A stretch of 28,899 bases of DNA from a virus. The stretch's first letter is position 1. Every line of letters starts with the position of its first letter. Position numbers and translations under genes: made by a program. The stretch lies in the IMG/VR virus record IMGVR_UViG_3300024430_000075, positions 1 to 28,899 of that record, one strand, 5' to 3'. A model generated the notes under the pieces. It saw nothing but the letters and a program-made list of their open reading frames with translations. It was not told where the DNA came from and did not search any database. Of the stretch, positions 4,585 to 28,899 are shown piece after piece.

Positions 4585-5838
4585 TCAAGCGGCGATCTGG
4601 AGCGCCCGCATCGGCTCGGGATTCTGGACACCGCCCCCCACCCGCTTCGTCGTGTAGAAATGGACGAAGGGCTTGTTGGTGAACGGGTCGCGCAGCACCC
4701 GGATTCCGACCCGGTCGACCACCAGATAGGTCTGCTCCATGTCGCCGTAGAGGGCGGCGATTGCGGCGGCGGCGATGTCGGGCATGTCCGGCACCTCCAC
4801 CACCGGCGCCGCCGCCAGCGTCGAGGGCTGGCCCAGCGCGAACGCCGGCTGCCACAGATAATTGCCCTGCCCGTCCTTCAGCTTGCGGAAGGCGGCCAGC
4901 GTCTGCTGGTTGGTGTAGAGCTTCGCGTTGCCGCGGAACTCCCCGGGGAGGCTGTAGATCAGGCTGATCAGCGCGTCGGCCGTGACCTGGGTGGCATGCC
5001 CGCTGTTGACGACGGCGATCGCGCCCCACGGGTGCCTGGCGGCATTGGCGGCGCCGGTCACGAAGGTGAGGATGCCGTAGGGCTTGTTCGTGCCGTTGCC
5101 GGACAGGAAAGCGATATTCTCCTGCTTGGCGAACTCGCCGTCCACTTCGTCCGACAACCACACCTCGAGGTCGACGGCAGCATCGTCGAGCAGCTGCTGC
5201 GAGATGCCCGGGTTGGCGTAGATCTCGCCGGGCACGAAGTCGAGCTGACCGATCGCCGGCGTGGTCGTGGCCGGCCTGGCCGCCGTCTCCCCGACCCAGC
5301 CCGAGCCGATCGCGCGGTCGCTGAAGTTTTTCTTGAAGCCCGCGGTCGAGATGCTGATCACCCGCGAATTCTCGCGGATCGGCGAGACCCGCTTGACCTT
5401 GCTGGTGATGGTGCGGTCCCATTCGATCGGCGCGAGATAGCCGCCATCGGCGTCCACCCCCTTGGTCATTGCCGCCTGCACCTCGCCGCTGCGGAGATGA
5501 GCCTTGAAGGCCACGACATATTCCGGGTCGGAAGCCGGGATGTCGCCGATGACGCCGCCGTTCAGCTTGTTGGAGGCGAGGATCGCCGCCTGGTCGTCGA
5601 GCGCCTTGGTGAGCTTGTTCAGGTCGGCGTTGATCGCGTCCAGCTTTGCGGTCACGACCGCATCGTCCACCTTCGCCGCCAGCGAGGCGTCGTTGGTCGC
5701 CTTGAATTCCTCGAAGGCAGCCTGGAGCTGGCCGATCAGCGCTTTGGGATCGCTGATATCGGCGCGGGGGGTGGCGTGAACGGCGCGCGGCATGTCGAGC
5801 GAAAGCGCGGCAGCCGCCGTAAACATCATCTTGTTCAT
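4585..5838 (-). CDS. Major capsid protein, HK97 fold
   Basis: A 417-residue protein starting at ATG 5838 with AGGAG seven bases upstream. The first about 110 residues are helical and charged (KALIGQLQAAFEEFKATND onward), as in the scaffolding delta domain removed by the prophage protease. The mature part begins around the KAHLRSGEVQAAMTKGVDAD segment, followed by GGYLAPIEWDRTI. It then has the E-loop, P-domain and A-domain pattern of HK97 capsids (ANPGISQQLLDDAAVDLE, FLSGNGTNKPYGIL, and GIRVLRDPFTNKPFVHFYTT). Length and order after portal and protease genes agree with the family. Several hundred copies would form the icosahedral head. Confidence 0.95.
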   Translation of the reverse strand: MNKMMFTAAAALSLDMPRAVHATPRADISDPKALIGQLQAAFEEFKATNDASLAAKVDDAVVTAKLDAINADLNKLTKALDDQAAILASNKLNGGVIGDIPASDPEYVVAFKAHLRSGEVQAAMTKGVDADGGYLAPIEWDRTITSKVKRVSPIRENSRVISISTAGFKKNFSDRAIGSGWVGETAARPATTTPAIGQLDFVPGEIYANPGISQQLLDDAAVDLEVWLSDEVDGEFAKQENIAFLSGNGTNKPYGILTFVTGAANAARHPWGAIAVVNSGHATQVTADALISLIYSLPGEFRGNAKLYTNQQTLAAFRKLKDGQGNYLWQPAFALGQPSTLAAAPVVEVPDMPDIAAAAIAALYGDMEQTYLVVDRVGIRVLRDPFTNKPFVHFYTTKRVGGGVQNPEPMRALQIAA

Positions 5839-5848
5839 GGTAGGACTC

Positions 5849-6727
5849 CTATGCCCTGATGGTTTGGAGAAGACCGGCGAGGGCGCCGGCCAGTTCGGGA
5901 TCGGGAGCAGAGTCCGTCGTGCTCCCGGATGGGGCAGAGTCCGTCGTGCCCCGAATCTTGTTGATGCGCGCGCGCGCTTGGCTTCGGGTGTTCCCCGAGG
6001 CCAGCAACGACAGCTCCATCGCGCGCAGCTCATTGATTTGTTTGTCGGAAGCCTGGGCTTCCTCGTCTACCTTCACCTGGTCCGCAGGGAGGAGCGCGTC
6101 GGCGAAGCCACGCTCGATCGCCGCGCTGCCCGACATCCATGTCTCGGCATCCATCCACTTGGCAACATCCTCAGCCGACTGCCCCGTGCGCTGCGCGTAG
6201 ACATCGCGCATCGCGGCGTCGAATGGCTCCAGCCAATCGGCCGTCTCCCGCATGTCGTGCCTGTTGCCGATCGCGATCACCCAGCAATCGTGGATCATGA
6301 TGAAGCCGGCCGCCCCGATCTCGATCTCGTCGCCGGCCATGGCGATGATCGACGCAGCGGAAGCGGCCATGCCGAGGATCTTTACCGTGATGGCCTGAGA
6401 ATGTTCGCGCAGCACGTTGTAGATCGCGATGCCCTCGAACATGTCGCCACCCGGGGAGTTGATCTGCACCTCAACCGGCCTGTCACCGATAGCGCGAAGC
6501 TGTTCCCTGACCTTCTTCGCCGTCACCCCGCCGCCGGTCCAGAAGTCCTCGCCGATGATGTCGAACATGGTGATGACATTGTCGCCCGACGACAATGCCC
6601 GCACACCAGCACCTTCGGACGACCAGCGATCCAGAACGCTGCTCGGCGTCAGCGCCGACACATCGCGGCGTTCGGGAACCGGAAGAGCTCCAGGCCGCGC
6701 CTTGGCGAAGACAAACATCGGCTTCAT
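5849..6727 (-). CDS. Head maturation protease, ClpP-like (S14) fold
   Basis: A 292-residue protein starting at ATG 6727. It has the ClpP-type core: PVEVQINSPGGDMFEGIAIY near residues 85-104, the catalytic serine in GMAASAAS (Ser123), and the catalytic histidine in MIHDCW (His146). This protease cleaves the capsid delta domain during head maturation. The C-terminal tail contains a short duplicated TTDSAP / TDSAP segment encoded by a small tandem DNA repeat near 5910-5960. The gene follows portal with one base between stop and start, and precedes capsid by ten bases. It is visibly less GC-rich than the terminase gene, like the portal, suggesting a shared recombinational origin. Confidence 0.93.
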   Translation of the reverse strand: MKPMFVFAKARPGALPVPERRDVSALTPSSVLDRWSSEGAGVRALSSGDNVITMFDIIGEDFWTGGGVTAKKVREQLRAIGDRPVEVQINSPGGDMFEGIAIYNVLREHSQAITVKILGMAASAASIIAMAGDEIEIGAAGFIMIHDCWVIAIGNRHDMRETADWLEPFDAAMRDVYAQRTGQSAEDVAKWMDAETWMSGSAAIERGFADALLPADQVKVDEEAQASDKQINELRAMELSLLASGNTRSQARARINKIRGTTDSAPSGSTTDSAPDPELAGALAGLLQTIRA

Positions 6728-11752: not shown

Positions 11753-11786
11753 GACCCTTCCGCCTGACTTCCGTGGCGGAAGGGTC
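11753..11786 (-). terminator. 12-bp stem hairpin overlapping the primase stop, possible terminator
   Basis: GACCCTTCCGCC (11753-11764) is repeated exactly as its complement at 11775-11786, with a ten-base loop. It overlaps the stop codon of the primase gene, at the border between early replication and late genes. There is no T tract behind it on the minus strand, so rho-independent termination is only possible, not shown. Confidence 0.5.
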
Positions 11787-14700
11787 ACGGTCGATCGTCC
11801 CATCCGCCGATGAAGTCGTCGCGAGGCGGCGGCCGAGCCGCGGGCGCCCTCGGCACCGGGTCCTCCAGGTCGGGCAGGCTCTCGCGCACCCTCCCCTCGG
11901 CATCGACGAACTCCTCCTCCGAGCGAGTCAGCCTGAGCCCGATCCAGCGCATGCCATCGCTTCGGGTCTTGGCGAAGCCCTTGTCGATCATCGCGTCGGC
12001 GAAGCCCTTCGAGCTCCACTCCTTCTCGCCGGCGGCCTTGCACCAGGCGGTGAACACCCGGTGCAGCTCCGACGACTTGACCCGGCTCTGCGGGTCCATC
12101 TCGGTGCACAGCCGAAGGAAGCGCGCCAGCGGGTCGCTATGGTCGCGATAGGCCTGGGTCGCCGCCGTCACCCCCTCGGGCTCGACGAAGCCGTGCTCGA
12201 GATAGTCGACCAGCCCCTCGACGAGCCGCCGGAACACGCCGGGCAGCTCGGCCGCCTTGATCTTGGCGAGCAGCTTGGGGTCCTTGGTCGGCCAGTCGGC
12301 GACCCCGGGCTCGGGCTGGTCGATGTTCCTCAGCCACGGGATCAGCTTCATCCGGCCCCAAATGCCTTCGTCGGTGTCGGGGATGGCGGGCTTGGAATTG
12401 CCGCTCATCAGCAGCTTGAAGCGCGGCAGCAGGTCGAAGAAGCCCCGGTGCAGAGCCCGCACGCTCATCGGCTCGCCGCCCGTCGCCGCCTTGATCAGCG
12501 CCGAATTGAGCTTGGCGCCGCGCTCGGGCTCGGACGCGCGAAGCATCCTCACCCCGCCCAGCTTGGCCAGGTCCGGGGTCGCCTGGTCGCCCCTCTTCTT
12601 GATCCCCTGGTCGAGGAAGGATTCGATCCCGATCGTGCCGGAATAGTCGCCCAGCGCCGAGCACCAGCTGTCGATCGCGGTCGACTTGCCGTTGCGGCCA
12701 CGGCCGTAGTTGAACCACAGCTTGTGCTCGCCAGTGTCGCCCGAGGCGGCATAGCCGCCGACCTGGTGGAGATAGCGGCGCATGCCGTCGTCGGGCTGGG
12801 CCCAGGCGATCATCCCGTCATAGAGCGGGCTAGGCGCCTCTGGATCGTAGAGGACGGGCGCGAGCCGGGTGATATAATCCTCGCGCCGATGAGAGTCCCG
12901 GCTCACCGCCACCTTGCGCGATCCATCCGGCAAGATCTCGACGGCGAATCGCAACGTGCAATTCTCGACGTTGATCGCCATCTGCTCGCAGTCGAAATCC
13001 TCGATCGGGACGGTCAGCCAGCGCCGCGCGAGATTGGCGATGGCGACGGGCTTGCTCGCCTGCTCGGACTGCCGACCCCACGTCGCGAGCAGGGTCGAGA
13101 AACGCTTCCACTGCTTTCCGACCGCCACCCAATGGTCGAGCGCGTGCAGATTCGCCTGGTCGACGTCGAGCCGCTCCTGCTTGCCCTCCCTGACCAATTC
13201 GAGCTTGAGTCCGGTCTCGGCGACCCGCCGGGCCTCGCGCTGGATCGACCTTATCGTCTCGAACACGGCCGCGACCAGCTCGGCGGGCGCCGTGTCCTTG
13301 TCCTGGTCGAGCACCTTCCACCGCCGCTCGTCCCAGCCCAGCCAGCCTTTGCCGGTGGTGAACCGGAAATCGCGCCCGTGGCGGTCGCGGAAGCGCTCGC
13401 CGATCCCGAAATCGGTCATCGGATAGGCCGAGCAGGCGAGGTCGAGCAGCAATGGCCCGGGATCGAAGCCGCGGGCGCCGCCGCCGTCAACGGCTCGGTC
13501 GATGTCGGAATGCTGGAGATCGGCGACATCCTCGCACAGCGGCCAGATCGCCTCCTTGGCCGACCCCTCGTCGAGCAGCTTCGCCGCCACCCGCCGGCCG
13601 ATGCCCCAGGCGATCGCCGTCAGCTCGGCCTTGCGTTCCGCCGCCGGCAGCCGCGCCGCCCCCGCCAGCCGCCGCTCCAGCCACGCCTCGGCGATCGGCC
13701 GAAGCCGGGCAAGCTCGGCCTCGCCGAGCGGTGGCGGCGGCGCTGCGGGCTCATCCCCGAACCCCGCGCCCGACGATTGGCCCGCCAGCCTTCCATCCCG
13801 GAAGGGTCGCGAATTTCTCGCCGATTGATCGTCCGACGACGGGCGGCGAGCCGCGCTCGAGGCCGGGGGCGATCGGGCGGAAGCGGCGGAAGCCCTGCGG
13901 CGATCCGGCCCGTAGCGCGAAGCGCGCGAGCGCGCGGCGGCCGCGATCTCGCCGAGATCGCGAGGCTTGTTGAGTCCGGCGGACCAGCCGCTCTCGATCG
14001 TCGCGGCGAGCTGGCGGTCGTCATCTCGCCCCGGATTGTCGCGCGCCGCCGCCTCGAGGCACTGCCGGGCGATCGTCTCCTGAAGCGCCCCGGCGGCCAC
14101 TAGCGAGGCGATCTTGAGCGCGCTTTCGTTGAGCTGGCTGTTGCGCTGGCCGCTGCCGGCGGTCCGGACCGCCTGGCACTCGCCGTCGAGCGCCGCCAGC
14201 GCATATTTGCGCACCGCCTCGCGCTCGGAATCGTCCCAGGCCTGTCCCAAGCCTGCCGAAGCGCCCGCCGGCAGCGGCCGCGCCGCGGCCGCGCCGGCGC
14301 CGTCCCGTCCCGCTCCCTTGCCTGGCGAGCTCAGGATCTCGATCAAAGCCGCCGGCGCCTCGGCGATGCCGCCGATCGGCTCCTTGCGGTGCCAGCGATA
14401 GCGAAGCCCGGCCTGCCCCTTGACCGCATTGGGCCCCATGACGCTCGGCGGAGCGATGACGTAGCCGCCCAGCCCGCGCACGTCGACATGGTCGGGGAGG
14501 TTGCCGCGGTTGGCGATCGCCGGCCCGTCCCCCGGCTGGAGCAGATAGGCATGGACCCCGTCGGAAGGCGTCAGCGCGGCGAGCGTGACCGGGAAATCGC
14601 ACCCCATCATCGCCTCGAGCTCGGTCTTGAGACGGTCGAGCGTCCAGATCTCGCCCGTGTCGGCGTCCTCGCGCGGGTCGAAATCGACGACGAACAGCCG

Positions 14701-14973
14701 ACGGCCGCCCAGATCGAGCGTCGGGTGGCCGGTGGCGATCGCGACCAGCGCTCTCGGCCACTTCTTCCACCAGGCGCGGATCAGCTCCGGGTCGGTGCTC
14801 GCCTTGGTGACCCCGCCGCTGTTCGGGATCGGCCTGCCCGCCTCATCCTTGTCGCGCGCGAGCAGGGGCTGCTTGTTCTTCGGGTTGCACGGAAAGACCG
14901 GCCATCCCCGCGCGGCGTAGGCGAGGGCGGCCGCGAGCAGGTCGTCCCGAAGTGGTCCTTCGGGCCGTGTCAT
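11785..14973 (-). CDS. Bifunctional primase-polymerase / SF3 helicase (P4-type)
   Basis: A 1062-residue replication protein starting at ATG 14973, whose ATGA overlaps the dpdA stop. The N-terminal domain is a prim-pol: AYAARGWPVFPCNPKNKQPL near residues 18-37, a catalytic Asp-x-Asp in VVDFDPRED (about 97-99), and a conserved VDVRGLGGYVIAPPS segment. A linker about 100 residues long (roughly 360-460) is Ala/Pro/Ser rich. The C-terminal half is a P4/D5-type helicase with Walker A GRGRNGKST (about 757-765) and a following segment RFKLLMSGNSKPAIPD typical of SF3 primases. A short region near the end (about 960-1000) reads like the P4 primase winged-helix. It would open and prime the phage origin. 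Confidence 0.92.
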   Translation of the reverse strand: MTRPEGPLRDDLLAAALAYAARGWPVFPCNPKNKQPLLARDKDEAGRPIPNSGGVTKASTDPELIRAWWKKWPRALVAIATGHPTLDLGGRRLFVVDFDPREDADTGEIWTLDRLKTELEAMMGCDFPVTLAALTPSDGVHAYLLQPGDGPAIANRGNLPDHVDVRGLGGYVIAPPSVMGPNAVKGQAGLRYRWHRKEPIGGIAEAPAALIEILSSPGKGAGRDGAGAAAARPLPAGASAGLGQAWDDSEREAVRKYALAALDGECQAVRTAGSGQRNSQLNESALKIASLVAAGALQETIARQCLEAAARDNPGRDDDRQLAATIESGWSAGLNKPRDLGEIAAAARSRASRYGPDRRRASAASARSPPASSAARRPSSDDQSARNSRPFRDGRLAGQSSGAGFGDEPAAPPPPLGEAELARLRPIAEAWLERRLAGAARLPAAERKAELTAIAWGIGRRVAAKLLDEGSAKEAIWPLCEDVADLQHSDIDRAVDGGGARGFDPGPLLLDLACSAYPMTDFGIGERFRDRHGRDFRFTTGKGWLGWDERRWKVLDQDKDTAPAELVAAVFETIRSIQREARRVAETGLKLELVREGKQERLDVDQANLHALDHWVAVGKQWKRFSTLLATWGRQSEQASKPVAIANLARRWLTVPIEDFDCEQMAINVENCTLRFAVEILPDGSRKVAVSRDSHRREDYITRLAPVLYDPEAPSPLYDGMIAWAQPDDGMRRYLHQVGGYAASGDTGEHKLWFNYGRGRNGKSTAIDSWCSALGDYSGTIGIESFLDQGIKKRGDQATPDLAKLGGVRMLRASEPERGAKLNSALIKAATGGEPMSVRALHRGFFDLLPRFKLLMSGNSKPAIPDTDEGIWGRMKLIPWLRNIDQPEPGVADWPTKDPKLLAKIKAAELPGVFRRLVEGLVDYLEHGFVEPEGVTAATQAYRDHSDPLARFLRLCTEMDPQSRVKSSELHRVFTAWCKAAGEKEWSSKGFADAMIDKGFAKTRSDGMRWIGLRLTRSEEEFVDAEGRVRESLPDLEDPVPRAPAARPPPRDDFIGGWDDRP

Positions 14974-15818
14974 AGCGGCCGGTCCGCAGAGTCGGTCGTT
15001 GGAGAACTCCACACCGGCAGCAACATGGACGATAGGAGAGTAGGTTCCGGAGCATTGCGTGCGATGCGATTGGTATATCTGATTGCTTCTTGAACGCTGT
15101 TTGCGTCCCGCCCCTCCCTCCTAGCGGCAAAGCTCCAGGCCATGCTGTCAGCCGACGCCAGCAGCGCCCGCACGAGGGCGCTGCCGAGTGCTGTTGCCTT
15201 GATTCCGAACCCATGTAGCCTAAGCTCCGGCCGCTCCCGCTTTATGGCGAGCAATACCTCCTCAATCGCAGCAGGATTACCGTTCCTCTTGCATACACTA
15301 CCGACCCCGACCCAAGCGCCCACCGCAGGCTTCTCGCCGACCACCGGCGGGAAAGCACGAGACAGGGCTGGTGAACGTGCGCACTCGTCGAGCCGGTCGC
15401 CGTAAGTTTTGAGATGTTGGACATATTCGTCAGGTGAGTACCCTTGCAGGACGGGCATCTGGTAGACGCCGCCGAGGTCGCAGGCGCCGATCGCATCAAA
15501 TCTCTCTATTGTGAGGGCCTGATGTTCATGCACGGACCTTCCAGTCAATCGCAACATGTACGGCTCGCACATGTAATCTTGGGTCACTGCCGCCAGCAGA
15601 CGACCGTTTTTCGACCATCTGTTGACTTCAGCAGCGTAGATCTCTGGGCTGTTGGGATAACCTCCGTATTTACGGATCGTCGAGAATGCGCCTGAATCCA
15701 TGATCCAGTCGTTCGCCGCGAATGCTCCCTTTCGCCGGACGAGTCGGTGAACCGAAATGAACGCCGCGTCGACACGCCCCGCGTCCGATGGCTGATGGAT
15801 GCCGGTGAAGAAGCGCAT
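14970..15818 (-). CDS. dpdA: DpdA-family 7-deazaguanine DNA transglycosylase
   Basis: A 282-residue protein with the features of phage DpdA proteins, relatives of tRNA-guanine transglycosylase that exchange guanine in DNA for preQ0-type bases. Seen in order: MRFFTGIHQP at the start; WIMDSGAFS (catalytic-type Asp, compare DSGGF in TGT); TQDYMCEPYML; MPVLQGYSPDEYVQHL; VGVGSVCKRN; LRLHGFGIKA; SADSMAWSF. The ATG at 15818 overlaps the upstream stop as TGATG, and its own stop overlaps the primase ATG, so the three genes are co-translated. The region is clearly poorer in GC than its neighbours, a sign of transfer. The TGT zinc-binding cysteines are not seen, as in short phage forms. No preQ0 synthesis genes are visible nearby; the precursor would come from the host. 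Confidence 0.87.
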   Translation of the reverse strand: MRFFTGIHQPSDAGRVDAAFISVHRLVRRKGAFAANDWIMDSGAFSTIRKYGGYPNSPEIYAAEVNRWSKNGRLLAAVTQDYMCEPYMLRLTGRSVHEHQALTIERFDAIGACDLGGVYQMPVLQGYSPDEYVQHLKTYGDRLDECARSPALSRAFPPVVGEKPAVGAWVGVGSVCKRNGNPAAIEEVLLAIKRERPELRLHGFGIKATALGSALVRALLASADSMAWSFAARREGRDANSVQEAIRYTNRIARNAPEPTLLSSMLLPVWSSPTTDSADRPL

Positions 15819-16147
15819 CACGGCCGCTCGACCTGGTCGCGGATGACCTCTAGCGCTCCAAGCGCAAGGGTCTGAGGCACCACCCCAATAAGGGCGCAGG
15901 CACGAGCTATAGTCAGATGGTCGTGGGCCGCATGGATGAGCGCCCGCTTCATTTCTGGTGTCCACATCAGCCGCGCTGGCCGCTCGATCGGGACGACAAT
16001 CTTGTTCTGCCGCAGGACTTGGCGAGCGCTGTCCGTATCGGCGCCAACTATGATCGCCAGCTTTGGCGCAGTCGCCCAAGGATGCGCCTCATGAGCGGCG
16101 ATCAATGCCGCTCGCAACGTACCTGCTGGCCAGCGGCGGCTGGTCAT
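15818..16147 (-). CDS. Small HTH-like protein coupled to dpdA
   Basis: A 109-residue protein starting at ATG 16147 with GGAGG six bases upstream. Its stop overlaps the dpdA start by one base. Two segments look like helix-turn-helix units: ATAPKLAIIVGADTDSARQV in the first half and LTIARACALIGVVPQTLALG in the second, joined by a stretch with PARLMWTPEMKRALIHAAHD. I do not recognise the family. Because it shares dpdA's lower GC and is translationally coupled to it, it may be a DNA-binding partner that helps target the modification, or a regulator. Both are inferences; there is no catalytic motif to point to a different role. Confidence 0.75.
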   Translation of the reverse strand: MTSRRWPAGTLRAALIAAHEAHPWATAPKLAIIVGADTDSARQVLRQNKIVVPIERPARLMWTPEMKRALIHAAHDHLTIARACALIGVVPQTLALGALEVIRDQVERP

Positions 16148-16297: not shown

Positions 16298-16588
16298 TCA
16301 TGCTTCCAGCCCCAGGCTGAGCTGGTCGCGCCGCCAGGCCTCGTCCTGCCCGGAATCGTCCGTCCGCGCTGTGCCCGCTGCGGCTTCTTCGAGCCGCACC
16401 AGGCCGAGCCCGATCGCCAGCTTCAACCCCGGACGATCGTGACCCTTCAGCACCCGCAGCACATGGCTGACGCTGACCCCGGCCTCGAACGCGACGCGCT
16501 TGGCGTGCCCGCGCCCCGGCGTCCGCCGCCGCAGCTGGTCGACCACCTGCCGCTCGAGCGCGGCGGTGAGGATCGGGCGGCCGCTCAC
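16298..16588 (-). CDS. Small HTH protein, unknown role
   Basis: A 96-residue protein starting at GTG 16588, whose GTGA overlaps the upstream stop. The first 60 residues hold a classical helix-turn-helix pattern (KRVAFEAGVSVSHVLRVLKG) after a helix (LERQVVDQLRRR). The rest is acidic with no clear fold. Such small DNA-binding proteins are common in phage early operons and may regulate the operon or replication. The family is not recognised. It is the last gene of the run of overlapping small genes before the structured gap in front of the dpdA pair. Confidence 0.72.
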   Translation of the reverse strand: MSGRPILTAALERQVVDQLRRRTPGRGHAKRVAFEAGVSVSHVLRVLKGHDRPGLKLAIGLGLVRLEEAAAGTARTDDSGQDEAWRRDQLSLGLEA

Positions 16589-16995
16589 GGCACCACCTTC
16601 AGATGGCAGCCTTTCGGCCCTTCCTCGAAGACGGTCTCGGCCCAGGGAGGGACAAGATTGGCAGGGTGAAGCACCCTCGGATCGAGCCGCTCGCGCAAGG
16701 CGTCGACGCGCGGCTTCAGGAAGCGGGCACTGAGCGGGTCAATATGCTGCCAGTCGGCCCACCCAGCGACCTCGTCGGCCACCGCCTGGGCGCCGGCGAG
16801 CCCCATCACCAGGCCCATCATCCCGAATCCGGTCGGCAGGTGGGTGAGCAGCCACGCCATCTGGCCATCCGGGTCCACGTCGTCGGGAAACCAGACCGGC
16901 CTGAAGTCCAGCCCGAACAACTCCCGCCGCCACCCGGCGACGACCTGCCAGCCCTTGTCCGTCGAGCAGCGTATCTCGCCCACCGCCCAGCTCAT
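16585..16995 (-). CDS. Hypothetical conserved phage protein
   Basis: A 136-residue protein starting at ATG 16995, which overlaps the upstream stop as ATGA. It is Trp rich (at least six Trp). It reads CSTDKGWQVVAGWRRELFGL, then LPTGFGMMGLVMGLAGAQAVAD in the middle, a hydrophobic stretch that may be an amphipathic or buried helix. The C-terminal half is mixed (HPANLVPPWAETVFEEGP). I do not recognise a family. The gene is part of the tightly overlapped early run. Its real coding status is supported by the overlaps on both sides and the balanced composition. Confidence 0.68.
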   Translation of the reverse strand: MSWAVGEIRCSTDKGWQVVAGWRRELFGLDFRPVWFPDDVDPDGQMAWLLTHLPTGFGMMGLVMGLAGAQAVADEVAGWADWQHIDPLSARFLKPRVDALRERLDPRVLHPANLVPPWAETVFEEGPKGCHLKVVP

Positions 16996-18059: not shown

Positions 18060-18613
18060 CGTTTACCGCTCCCGGTAAGCAGATGACGATTTCGGTCGTT
18101 CACCGGGCCGAGCAGCGGCAGGACGTGGGCGACGCTCTCGCCGCCCACATCGGCCTCCGCGCGCTCAACGGCCCACAGCAGCCGATCTACGAGCCGGGTT
18201 TCCTCGGCCGCCAGCTCGCGAAGCGTCGCATCGCCGGGCGCCCAGGTGTCCGAGCTGCCTTCGTTCACGAGCCGGGCGACGCCGCAGGTGGCGACGCTCG
18301 CGGGTCGCCAGATGCAGCCGCAGCCGTGGCACAGGTGCGACCGGTGGGGCGGGTCGGTCCACCCACGCTCGGGCTCGGGCTCGTCGACGTGCTGCAGCCC
18401 GCAGCGCGGGCAGTGGAGCACCATCGGGATCGGCAGCACCCTGGCCGTCATCGCCGCCAGACCGTTCAGGCTCTTGTCCCGGCCGCCCCGGCCGAGCCCG
18501 TCCCGCCACGTCACCAGCATCGCCGCGAGATAGCCCTGCTGATATTCGCTGTCCGGCGGATCGGCCCGGAACGTCTCCAGCGCCGCCCGGACGAAGTCCG
18601 CGATCCCGGTCAT
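18056..18613 (-). CDS. Conserved phage protein with central zinc ribbon
   Basis: A 185-residue protein starting at ATG 18613, overlapping the methyltransferase stop as ATGA. An N-terminal helical region is followed by a zinc ribbon: CPRCG, then about 25 residues, then CHGCGCIWRP. The segment between has the pattern H-V-D-E-P with DPPHRSHLC, seen in many phage proteins that lack a named function. The C-terminal half is helical and acidic. It probably binds nucleic acid or protein through the ribbon. It lies between the methyltransferase and small accessory genes. Confidence 0.76.
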   Translation of the reverse strand: MTGIADFVRAALETFRADPPDSEYQQGYLAAMLVTWRDGLGRGGRDKSLNGLAAMTARVLPIPMVLHCPRCGLQHVDEPEPERGWTDPPHRSHLCHGCGCIWRPASVATCGVARLVNEGSSDTWAPGDATLRELAAEETRLVDRLLWAVERAEADVGGESVAHVLPLLGPVNDRNRHLLTGSGKR

Positions 18614-19623
18614 TCCGCCGCCTCCAGGTCGTTGACGCCATCCTCTTCTTCATCGTCCGGCCCGGCCGAAAGCTGGATCAGGGTTTCTCCATCGACAGCG
18701 CCGGGCATCTCGGCAGCGGCCACGTTGTTCAGCGCCTGCCGAAAATATGAGGCCTTGAGCTCGACGCCGATGCCACGCCGGCCGTTGATCAGCGCCCCGT
18801 AAATCTCGCTGCCGACACCCATGAACGGGCTAAGCACTACGTCTCCTGGATTGCTCCACAGCGCGATTACGCGCTCGATGGCGTCCAGTTGGAGCGGGTG
18901 GACGTGCTTTTCGTCGTCACGTTCCTTCGCCGCCTTGTAGGGCAGCACCCGCTCGATACGGATATCGTCCCAAAAGCAGGAAGCGTATTGACGCCAGATC
19001 CAGTGTGAGAGGCGGTTCTTCGCCTGGTCGGTCTCGCCTCGATATTGCCAAAGTCCAGGCGGAACCTCGCGGCCACCAGCATAGCGGTCGAACCCGGTTG
19101 CGTGGGTGACCGGCTCGGCGTTGTCGCCGTCACGCTTGAAGAACAGGAACTGATCGCCCGCCGCGACGGTGCTGGCCGTGCTGTCCTTCACCAGCTGCTT
19201 GTGGGTCAGGTGACGCAACCTGGTCCGGATGGCCACCTTGAGCGGCTCCTTCCAGATGAAGGCTCGGCCATAGAAATAGAATCCGAAGCGCTCGTGCAGG
19301 GCAATCACCTTGCCGGGAAAATCGTAATAGCCGCTGCGCTGGCCTGGGTTCGGGATGTCCATGCAATGCACGGCGGTCATCCGCCCCGGCTTCGTCACCC
19401 GCGCGACCTCGCCAACCAGAAAAGCGTAATGCTCCAGGAACCCGTCATAGGTGCGGTTGTTCGACAGGTCCTGATCGTGACTCGAATAATTGTAGAGCCC
19501 GCAAAAGGGCGGCGAGTAGACACTGAGGTGCACGCTCTGCGCCGGCAAGGACGGCAGTACCTCGCAACAGTCGCCGTTGTAGAGCGCGTAATTCTCCGCG
19601 ATCCGCTGCTCGCTTACAGCCAT
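18610..19623 (-). CDS. Site-specific DNA methyltransferase, beta class
   Basis: A 337-residue protein starting at ATG 19623, which lies ten bases inside the end of the SNF2 helicase gene. Motif IV is SPPF (residues 37-40, in VYSPPFCGLYNYSS). Motif I appears late, PFMGVGS (266-272), followed by GIGVEL. The order IV then I marks the beta class, and SPPF points to amino methylation (N4-cytosine or N6-adenine). The substrate site cannot be read from the sequence. No cognate restriction nuclease is adjacent, so it is an orphan phage enzyme that could protect phage DNA or regulate genes. It is coupled to the helicase upstream and to the zinc ribbon protein downstream. Confidence 0.92.
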   Translation of the reverse strand: MAVSEQRIAENYALYNGDCCEVLPSLPAQSVHLSVYSPPFCGLYNYSSHDQDLSNNRTYDGFLEHYAFLVGEVARVTKPGRMTAVHCMDIPNPGQRSGYYDFPGKVIALHERFGFYFYGRAFIWKEPLKVAIRTRLRHLTHKQLVKDSTASTVAAGDQFLFFKRDGDNAEPVTHATGFDRYAGGREVPPGLWQYRGETDQAKNRLSHWIWRQYASCFWDDIRIERVLPYKAAKERDDEKHVHPLQLDAIERVIALWSNPGDVVLSPFMGVGSEIYGALINGRRGIGVELKASYFRQALNNVAAAEMPGAVDGETLIQLSAGPDDEEEDGVNDLEAAE

Positions 19624-20969
19624 GCCGGCACCGTCTCGCGCTGATCGAAGGTCTTGAGGCGGTCGAGGCGGATCGCATCGTTCATCTCAGCGACGATCCG
19701 GCTGAACATCTCGTCGCAGGCCTTCGCCTTGCGCCGAAGGTTGCCGAGGGTGCCCACCTGGGCGGTCGTGCCGATAATGTCCCCCCGGACCTGGTGGGTC
19801 TGGCCGAACCGCCAGAAGCGCCGGACCGCCTGGTAATATTGTTCGAAGCTGTCAGTCGGAAAGTAGCTGAAGCGATGGCAATGCTGCCAGTTCATCCCGA
19901 AGGCTGCGATCTTCGGCTTGGTCACCAGCGTCCGGATCTGGCCGCGCCTGAAGGCGGCAAACACCTCTTCCTTGCGCTCATCCGGGTCCGCGCCGCTGAC
20001 CTGCACGGCACCGGGGATCAGGCGGGCGAGCAAGTCACCCTCCGCGTTCAGATGACACCAAGCAACGGCCGACGTCGCATCGGCGAGACGCTGGGCCGCC
20101 GCCTCGCACCGGCGCTCGATCGTCAGCCGTAGATCGGCGCGCTTCTCGTCCAGCGAGCGCGCCGGCGCGTGGAACAGGTCCCCTGCGGCGTTCGGGCTTT
20201 CCACCAGATGCTCGGCCTCGACCAACTCCGGCAAGACGAACCGGCCATCGTCGAAGCCCAAGTCGGAGGGCCGGCGGCAAGCACGCGACCAGCTCGCCAT
20301 CCATCGCCAGAAGTCGCGCTCGGCGTGCGGCTTCAGCCGCCACTGCGATCCGATGAAGGCGGGGTGCAGGCTGTCTTGGTCGTTACGGAAGAACAGCGAC
20401 AGCATGTCCATATAGCCGAGCTCGCCCAGCGCCTCGGCCGACGTGCCAAGCTCGACGTAGTCGTTCGGCGCTGCGGTCGCCGTGCACAGCAGCCGGTATT
20501 TGGTTCGGCGCATGAACTCGGTGATCGCCTGCTTCCGCGCGCCGTCGAAATTCTTGATGATCGAGCTTTCGTCGCAGACGATGCCGGCAAAATCCTCCGG
20601 GTCGAAATAGTGCAGCTTCTCGTAATTGGTGACGATCGCCCGCGCGCCGCGATGGCGTCCGTCCATGCAGCGCGCGGCGTCGATGCCGAACTTCTCCGCC
20701 TCCTCCACGGTCTGCTGCGATACCGACAGCGGCGCCAGCACCAGCACCGGCTTGTTTTCGTGAGCGATCACGTTCTGCGCCCACACCAGCTGCATCGGCG
20801 TCTTGCCGAGCCCGCAATCGGCGAACTCGGCGGCCCGCCCCTTGCGGACGCTCCAGTCGACCAGGTGCGCCTGGAAATCGAACAGGAACGACGGCAGAAA
20901 AGTCGGCGCGAAGCCGTGATCGCCGCCCAGCTGAGCCTTGCGCTCGAGGAAAGCGCGATAGGCGTTCAT
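19614..20969 (-). CDS. SNF2-family DEAD/DEAH-box helicase
   Basis: A 451-residue protein starting at ATG 20969. It has Walker A DCGLGKT (51-57), motif II CDESS (132-136), motif III-like CTATAAPND, and motif VI QAVRRFWRFGQ near the C-terminus. It is short for SNF2 proteins and carries no extra domains. It is likely a DNA translocase rather than a strand-separating helicase. A SNF2 protein overlapping a DNA methyltransferase gene is a repeated arrangement in prophages and may mean the two act together; the partnership here is inferred from the ten-base overlap. Confidence 0.88.
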   Translation of the reverse strand: MNAYRAFLERKAQLGGDHGFAPTFLPSFLFDFQAHLVDWSVRKGRAAEFADCGLGKTPMQLVWAQNVIAHENKPVLVLAPLSVSQQTVEEAEKFGIDAARCMDGRHRGARAIVTNYEKLHYFDPEDFAGIVCDESSIIKNFDGARKQAITEFMRRTKYRLLCTATAAPNDYVELGTSAEALGELGYMDMLSLFFRNDQDSLHPAFIGSQWRLKPHAERDFWRWMASWSRACRRPSDLGFDDGRFVLPELVEAEHLVESPNAAGDLFHAPARSLDEKRADLRLTIERRCEAAAQRLADATSAVAWCHLNAEGDLLARLIPGAVQVSGADPDERKEEVFAAFRRGQIRTLVTKPKIAAFGMNWQHCHRFSYFPTDSFEQYYQAVRRFWRFGQTHQVRGDIIGTTAQVGTLGNLRRKAKACDEMFSRIVAEMNDAIRLDRLKTFDQRETVPAWL

Positions 20970-27159: not shown

Positions 27160-27320
27160 TGCAGGCTCCAGCCGCCCCGCAGCCTCCGCCCGAGCTGGTC
27201 GAGCTCGCCGAGGCCCTTGCACGCGCCGCCGTGGCGCGCCAATTTGACGCCCTTCTCCCCCGAGGCTCCGCCCGTGCGAACGATCATCTACGCCCGGTTC
27301 AGCTCGACGCTGCAGAATAG
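27159..27320 (+). CDS. 53-residue protein overlapping the integrase start, candidate directionality factor
   Basis: ATG 27159 overlaps the upstream stop by one base. The protein is MQAPAAPQPPPELVELAEAL followed by a helix (ARAAVARQFDALLPRGS) and a short end. It overlaps the first 47 bases of the integrase in another frame. A small helical protein encoded just before a serine integrase could be its recombination directionality factor, or only a coupling ORF. The family is not recognised. Confidence 0.5.
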   Translation: MQAPAAPQPPPELVELAEALARAAVARQFDALLPRGSARANDHLRPVQLDAAE

Positions 27321-28899
27321 CCGGTCGGCCGACGACCAGGTCGCTCTCTGCCGCGCCCGCTGCGTGCAGGAGGGATGGGAGGTCGTCGGCGTTCACAAGG
27401 ACGAGGCGATCAGCGGCGCCGCCGGCATCGGCGAGGACGCCCGTCCCGGTCTCTTCGCCGCGATCGCCGCGATCGAGGCCGGGGGAGTCGACCAGCTGCT
27501 CACCGAGTCGACCGACCGCATCGCCCGCCACCAGGGCGACGCCTTCGCGGTTCGCGAGCGGATCGAATATGCCGGCGCCCGATTGTTCACATTACTTGAC
27601 GGCGTCGTCGACGACATAACCGGGACTATCAAAGGACTGTTCGACGCCCGCTTTCGTAAGGATTTGGGAGCCCGCACTCGGCGCGGCCAGGCCGCGGTCG
27701 TGGCGTCGGGCCGCATCCCGGCAGGCCTCGCCTACGGCTATCTGAAGGCGCCCCGGCTCGACGGGCGCGGCGATCTCGTCCGCGGCGAGCGGACGATCGA
27801 CTCGGACCAGGCCGAGGTCGTCGTCCGGATATTCTCCGAATACGCCGCCGGCTCGAGCCCGCGGGCGATCGCCGAGGGGCTCAATCGCGACGGCATCCCG
27901 GCGCCGAGGGGCGGATCGTGGCGCGCCAGCACGATCGCCGGCGATCGGCGCCGGCGCAACGGCATGCTGCAGAACCGGCTCTATGTCGGCGAGATCGTCC
28001 ATGCGCGAACGAGCAAGGTGCCGGAGCCCCGGACGCGCAAGACGCGCATCCGGCCGAACGCCGAGGCGGACTGGATCGTGCAGCCGGCGCCCGAGCTGGC
28101 GATCGTCGGCCGCGACCTCTGGGAGCGCGTCCAGGTCCTGCGGTCTCGGCACGCGCAGCCGGACCGGCCCGAGCGCGCCCGACGTCCGAAGCATCTCCTG
28201 TCCGGGCTGGCGGTCTGCGGCGTCTGCGGCGGCGGCTACACGATCGCCAGCCGCGACCGATGGGGTTGCGGCCGCTGGCGCGACGGCCGCGGCTGCTCGA
28301 ACAACCGCACCGTCGCGGGGCGCCTGCTTGAGGAAAGGGTGCTTGCGGGGCTCGGGGACAAGATGCTCAACCCGGACGTCGTCGCGGCCTACGTCCGCGA
28401 ATTTCACCGCGAGCATGCCCGCCGGTCGGCCGAGGTCGGCCGCCGGCGAGCCAAGCTGGATCGGGCGCTCGCCGCGATCGACGCGAAGATCGCGCGCCTG
28501 GTCGAGGCCTTCGGCGAAAGGGGAGGGGACATCGAGGAGGTGCGCGCGGTCCTCGCCGCGGCGCGAGTCGATCGCGAAGGGATCAAAAGCCGGCGCCGGG
28601 ACCTCGACGCGCTCTCGGTCCTCACCCTGCATCCCGGCATCGCCGACGATTATCGCCGGCGAATGGCTCGGATCGGGTCGACGATCGGGCCCGACGACGC
28701 GCCGTTCGTCCGCAGCCTGATCGACCGCGTGACGATCACGCCGGCGCCCGAGGGCAAGCGCGGCGTCTCGATCGAGCTGTCCGGCAGGCTCGCCGGCATC
28801 CTCGCACTGGCGACAGGAGCGCCGCCACCGGCGGAAATGTACTATAACGGTGGAGCGGGTAGCGGGAATCGAACCCGCGTCACAAGCTTGGAAGGCTAG
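27274..28899 (+). CDS. int: Large serine recombinase (phage integrase)
   Basis: A 541-residue protein. The start is placed at GTG 27274, with GAGG eight bases upstream. The protein then opens VRTIIYARFSS, in which Ser10 is the likely nucleophile. An N-terminal resolvase domain (residues 1-140, with EAISGAAG and LTESTDRIARHQGD) is followed by a recombinase domain (PAGLAYGY, FSEYAAGSSPRAIAEGLNRD). A zinc ribbon begins at Cys315-Cys318 and ends with GCGRWRDGRGCSNN. A coiled-coil-like helix (VGRRRAKLDRALAAIDAKIA) then precedes a C-terminal tail. The last 16 residues (GSGNRTRVTSLEG at the end) are the translated antisense of the tRNA-Gly 3' half, and the stop TAG lies inside the tRNA anticodon stem. 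The integrase C-terminus therefore depends on the att site. Confidence 0.93.
   Translation: MRTIIYARFSSTLQNSRSADDQVALCRARCVQEGWEVVGVHKDEAISGAAGIGEDARPGLFAAIAAIEAGGVDQLLTESTDRIARHQGDAFAVRERIEYAGARLFTLLDGVVDDITGTIKGLFDARFRKDLGARTRRGQAAVVASGRIPAGLAYGYLKAPRLDGRGDLVRGERTIDSDQAEVVVRIFSEYAAGSSPRAIAEGLNRDGIPAPRGGSWRASTIAGDRRRRNGMLQNRLYVGEIVHARTSKVPEPRTRKTRIRPNAEADWIVQPAPELAIVGRDLWERVQVLRSRHAQPDRPERARRPKHLLSGLAVCGVCGGGYTIASRDRWGCGRWRDGRGCSNNRTVAGRLLEERVLAGLGDKMLNPDVVAAYVREFHREHARRSAEVGRRRAKLDRALAAIDAKIARLVEAFGERGGDIEEVRAVLAAARVDREGIKSRRRDLDALSVLTLHPGIADDYRRRMARIGSTIGPDDAPFVRSLIDRVTITPAPEGKRGVSIELSGRLAGILALATGAPPPAEMYYNGGAGSGNRTRVTSLEG
28851..28899 (-). tRNA. tRNA-Gly(UCC), 3' half; attachment site at right end
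   Basis: On the minus strand the final 49 bases read as the 3' part of a tRNA: anticodon loop CTTCCAA (anticodon UCC), T arm GCGGGTTCGATTCCCGC, acceptor TACCCGC, then T and an encoded CCA. The 5' half would lie beyond the window. The tRNA 3' end points into the phage, the usual orientation of an element using a tRNA as attB. One pair in the anticodon stem (T28 against T42) appears mismatched. Confidence 0.85.

Follow-up and report, generated by a model that had tools for sequence, protein, structure and literature searches.

The locus studied here raises the question of whether a lone phage dpdA and the small gene coupled to it form a DNA-modification module. The window is the whole of IMG/VR record IMGVR_UViG_3300024430_000075, a linear virus contig of 28,899 bases that is probably a fragment. 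It contains HK97-type head genes, which are nearest to those of alphaproteobacterial phages, and a large serine recombinase gene at the edge of the record (Table 1). Because of this recombinase, the phage is probably temperate. It had been called a prophage from its sequence; what the recombinase makes probable is a temperate phage. On the minus strand, the gene for a 96-aa HTH protein is followed, after a gap of about 150 nt, by a 109-aa ORF, dpdA, and the gene for a Prim-Pol/D5 primase. We favor, at a probability of about 0.7, the reading that the lone DpdA is accessory cargo that uses host-made preQ0, and that its gene was co-acquired with a 109-aa gene that is not its partner.

Table 1. 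Positions of the features discussed in the window and in related dpdA or primase loci (locus handles begin with L).
Feature	Record	Position	Strand	Evidence or remark
dpdA, lone phage DpdA (TGT-fold DNA-guanine transglycosylase, predicted), 282 aa	Window	14970-15818	-	PF23859, phrog_1279, AF2 fold
In-frame 63-bp insertion within dpdA (residues ~145-165)	Window	15324-15386 (boundaries approximate)	-	Alignment with 86 relatives
109-aa orphan ORF, possible N-terminal HTH, coupled to dpdA	Window	15818-16147	-	ORF and Shine-Dalgarno; without family or homologue
Prim-Pol/D5-type primase-helicase	Window	11785-14973	-	Prim-Pol E 1.1e-34, D5_N, phrog_1156 E 2.7e-132
HTH DNA-binding protein, 96 aa, next gene upstream of the 109-aa ORF	Window	16298-16588	-	phrog_3642 E 0.0012
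136-aa gene, further upstream	Window	16585-16995
N4/N6 DNA methyltransferase and helicase	Window	18610-20969
Capsid gene	Window	4585-6033
Large serine recombinase	Window	27217-28899
VUT genes by dpdA	L162; L166; L167	4771-5298; 2405-3004; 2282-3004
PP-loop gene just 5' of the primase	L140; L141; L142	4733-5953; 4766-5992; 4784-5992
PAPS-reductase-like PP-loop gene near dpdA	L004; L075; L040; L096	3748-5004; 3887-4996; 6408-7580; 4793-5926
PTPS (QueD-family) gene coupled to dpdA	L010	2350-2763		PTPS E 2.5e-20
Small gene upstream of dpdA, without family	L083; L001	5699-6013; 4623-4991

The 282-aa protein matched the Pfam family PF23859 (DpdA) with an E value of 6.8e-38 and a score of 130.7 bits (curated cut-off, 27), and the PHROG family phrog_1279 with an E value of 4.7e-56. 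Its AlphaFold2 model, for which the input was an alignment with 86 relatives, had a pLDDT of 90.9 and a pTM of 0.88, and a C-terminal tail of low confidence. The model has the TGT-like (β/α)8 fold. The top Foldseek ranks were TGTs and the solved structure of DpdA, the DNA preQ0 insertase from the bacterial Dpd system (7ui4; rank 2, E value of 1e-5). In VIA-align, the model superimposed on the TGT-like barrel of 7ui4 with a Z score of 17.6 and an rmsd of 3.4 over 228 residues, although 7ui4 is longer (413 residues) and only 17% identical. The Z scores against TGTs were 16.8 to 18.4, the highest being that of the archaeal TGT 1iq8. The window DpdA shares this fold and the DSG motif with TGT and ArcTGT. 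However, it had no match to PF01702 (TGT) in a Pfam scan to an E value of 1, and it lacks the zinc motif C-x-C-x2-C. Profile comparison with bacterial or canonical TGTs gave nothing significant, and the alignment profile found only chance matches to viral proteases among PDB sequences. PADLOC returned no match for DpdA or for the 109-aa protein. The motifs quoted in the sequence-only reading are present (DSGAF, QDYMCEP, GVGSVCKR, HGFGIKA, and SADSMAW), and the family profiles and the predicted fold support its assignment of the protein as a DpdA.

The residues D41 (in the DSG motif), D81, C84, E85, H202, and D224 are invariant among 87 aligned sequences. By motif and strand position, D41 and D224 would act as general base and nucleophile in the manner of a TGT. 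The window copy has 33 residues where all 86 relatives have 12. Therefore, it carries a 21-residue insertion that is unique among the 87 sequences. A direct repeat was looked for as the origin of this insertion and was not found.

We found no family match for PTPS/QueD, QueC, or VUT in the record, and no GTP cyclohydrolase (FolE) or radical SAM protein in Pfam scans of the window ORFs. The lack of folE, queC, queD, and queE noted previously is thus borne out, but because the record is probably a fragment, it holds only for these 28,899 bases. Of the dpdA phages described in the literature, the largest class (group 3 of Hutinet 2019, with 76 members; PMC6884629) has dpdA without preQ0 genes, and a host supply of preQ0 has already been proposed for these phages (PMC6884629, PMC8306585). 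Therefore, the window phage probably belongs to a known class. Like Orion, 7-11, and MED16, it has dpdA and, within the record, no preQ0 synthesis genes, and the precursor is presumed to come from the host. It differs from them in its alphaproteobacterial-type head genes, in the 21-aa insertion, and in a DpdA that is 33 to 48% identical to the named phage copies. To this class, the window would add a probably temperate phage with such head genes. A full-length QueC was present in 20 of the 24 bacterial genomes that carry a related dpdA. It is plausible that the window phage borrows host preQ0, as had been suggested for it.

We suggest that DpdA would replace guanines of the phage genome with a host-made 7-deazaguanine, either preQ0 or a base derived from it, and that the resulting modification would probably be sparse. 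Among the published lone-dpdA phages, dADG replaces about 0.02% of G in Salmonella phage 7-11 (PMC6884629) and about 0.13% of G in Pantoea phage MED16, where it had no noticeable effect on the restriction enzymes tested and blocked none of them (PMC8306585). Mycobacteriophage Orion has no 7-deazaguanine in its DNA (PMC6884629). Because Orion is unmodified and the MED16 modification blocks no enzyme tested, activity and an anti-restriction benefit are only putative for the lone-dpdA class. The Orion result also fits a different explanation, in which the lone DpdA of the window phage has no activity or has a substrate other than DNA. The TGT-like gene would then be decaying or repurposed, or its product would act on RNA. 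The unique insertion and the low-confidence C-terminal tail of the window copy point in the same direction. However, the reading frame is open, all 37 family-invariant residues are kept, the fold is predicted with high confidence, and the Orion negative is explained by a host that lacks the preQ0 pathway genes (PMC6884629). We therefore consider an inactive or RNA-directed DpdA unlikely.

The stop codon of the 109-aa ORF and the start codon of dpdA share one base in the sequence TGATG, in keeping with the previously described cotranslation of the two genes. The dpdA stop and the primase start (ATG at 14973) overlap in ATGA, and a good Shine-Dalgarno sequence, GGAGG, lies 6 nt before the ATG of the 109-aa ORF. 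The previously noted GC-poor stretch is real: the lowest GC content of the window (57.4%) is at 15251 to 15750, inside dpdA, and the GC contents of dpdA and the 109-aa gene are 59% and 64%. The GC3 values of the two genes are 0.65 and 0.68, compared with about 0.87 for most neighbors. Because both have a low GC3, they are consistent with a recent joint acquisition. The same early operon also contains genes for an N4/N6 DNA methyltransferase and a helicase, a pair that is conserved in L077 and L070. The 136-aa gene further upstream was searched for in viral contigs, and none was found.

Could the 109-aa protein be a partner of DpdA? The sequence-only reading had suggested a compact modification module with this protein as a possible targeting factor. 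As a DNA-binding subunit, it would steer DpdA to particular sites or permit its action there. The stop-start coupling and the atypical composition common to both genes would fit such a module, and so would the HTH-like N terminus of the protein. This last feature comes from a poor single-sequence AlphaFold2 model (pLDDT, 63.6), in which residues 4 to 60 resemble a winged or tri-helical HTH with middling Z scores of at most 7.3, tied with many HTH proteins. The best Foldseek match of the model in the PDB had an E value of 0.41. The protein had no family in Pfam, PHROG, NCBIfam, or PADLOC, and a Pfam match, HTH_Tnp_1 to the C-terminal segment, was insignificant (E value of 0.17). Of the two HTH-like segments described earlier, the N-terminal one thus appears in a low-confidence model, and the C-terminal one corresponds to this insignificant match. 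A role in DNA binding is plausible from the model.

The 109-aa protein is an orphan. Searches of phages, plasmids, viral contigs, and species genomes gave no homologue; the contig scans used exact octamer patterns, which reach close relatives only. There was also none in 783 alphaproteobacterial genomes, comprising 398 from the family and 385 from the class of a Sphingomonas relative. The matches in genomes and contigs were chance ones, most with internal stops, and the best of them, L184, fell within a sensor/transporter gene but in another reading frame.

We also surveyed 104 dpdA loci, 80 viral and 24 bacterial. None had a detectable relative of the 109-aa gene, and jackhmmer of the protein against all ORFs of these loci included nothing. 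The two genes thus show no conserved co-occurrence, and relatives keep dpdA with other neighbors, the outcome named beforehand as contradicting a module. Coupling was counted in the 84 loci with enough upstream sequence, for upstream ORFs of at least 60 aa. In 34 of them, dpdA was stop-start coupled to the upstream ORF, and these ORFs belonged to 32 unrelated families, including XRE HTH proteins, a PP-loop protein, PTPS, and families without assignment. Therefore, coupling is an operon habit and not a sign of partnership. In addition, the DpdA of phage 9g inserts preQ0 in E. coli without such a partner (PMC6884629). Although the coupling, the composition, and the HTH-like N terminus agree with it, we regard the two-gene module as very unlikely, and the proposed targeting function finds no support at any other dpdA searched. 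Still less probable is a stricter version, in which a short DpdA owes its site choice to the 109-aa protein, a DNA-binding subunit devoted to it that would dock on the 21-aa insertion. If true, it would be a type of partner not described for phage DpdA.

We lean toward another role, in which the 109-aa gene encodes an early phage protein, such as a transcriptional regulator, and precedes dpdA by chance in a mosaic operon. Small XRE-type HTH genes, not homologous to the 109-aa gene, adjoin dpdA in L018, L022, L024, L077, L005, and L072, and 4-nt overlaps are frequent among the genes of the dpdA operon. However, the HTH assignment is weak, as the tied Z scores and the Pfam E value indicate. This role is compatible with the cargo reading, in which the product of the 109-aa gene would be a small protein independent of DpdA, perhaps one that binds DNA through an HTH, and would not be a dedicated partner.

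The position of dpdA was compared with that in phages that have a related primase. There were 22 such phages, and neither dpdA nor the 109-aa gene was found in their loci. A dpdA profile that detects the window copy found none in the whole records of 18 sister phages. In the three closest sisters (L140 to L142), the primase matches are 72 to 74% identical, both genes are absent, and a PP-loop gene immediately precedes the primase. The L140 protein, which was the one tested, matches DndC profiles (E value of 6e-28) and is DndC/PAPS-reductase-like. Therefore, dpdA occupies a variable slot. The DndC-like gene sits just 5' of the same primase as dpdA does in the window, but it encodes an unrelated enzyme. 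Such an exchange fits the view of this position as a site for DNA-modification cargo. We suggest that dpdA is accessory cargo in this slot, which adjoins the 5' end of the primase gene within the early replication operon, and that dpdA and the 109-aa gene probably arrived together.

Unlike the 109-aa gene, a VUT/YhhQ-type transporter gene is a recurrent neighbor of dpdA. Such a transporter of queuosine precursors is encoded beside or close to dpdA in 5 of the 104 loci (L015, L017, L027, L043, and L053), and all four PF02592 (VUT) matches in 50 whole viral records are at dpdA. A VUT gene also lies beside dpdA in phage phiLM21 and in actinobacterial plasmids from Nocardia and Embleya. In the Sinorhizobium phage phiLM21, gp25 (annotated as a queuine tRNA-ribosyltransferase) is 47% identical to the window DpdA, and both genes are in the early region. 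However, gp25 is directly followed by the VUT-type gene, the gene before it is unrelated, and the 109-aa gene is absent. Hutinet et al. noted YhhQ homologues in phages, without correlation with any group (PMC6884629). Through the dpdA-VUT pairing in relatives, the way in which lone-dpdA phages obtain their precursor could be tested simply.

Other genes were observed near dpdA in relatives. PAPS-reductase-like (SspD/BrxP/DndC-like) PP-loop genes are present in four loci (Table 1), directly upstream of dpdA in L004 and L075, and DNA methyltransferase genes also occur. In bacteria, dpdA is part of a restriction-modification cluster of several genes (PMC6884629). The short viral contig L010 is the only locus in which a true PTPS gene is directly coupled to dpdA. 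A small upstream gene without a family (MRxxVxGSFTATHSCVEGHPH...) is found only in L083 and L001, the two closest dpdA relatives; it was considered as QueD-like and rejected because it had no Pfam PTPS match. A separate DpdA-like family of about 330 to 370 aa, with the motifs LDSGGF, GVGSMCRR, and IDSQAYG, is present in the Sphingomonadaceae genomes L121, L122, L124, L127, and L134.
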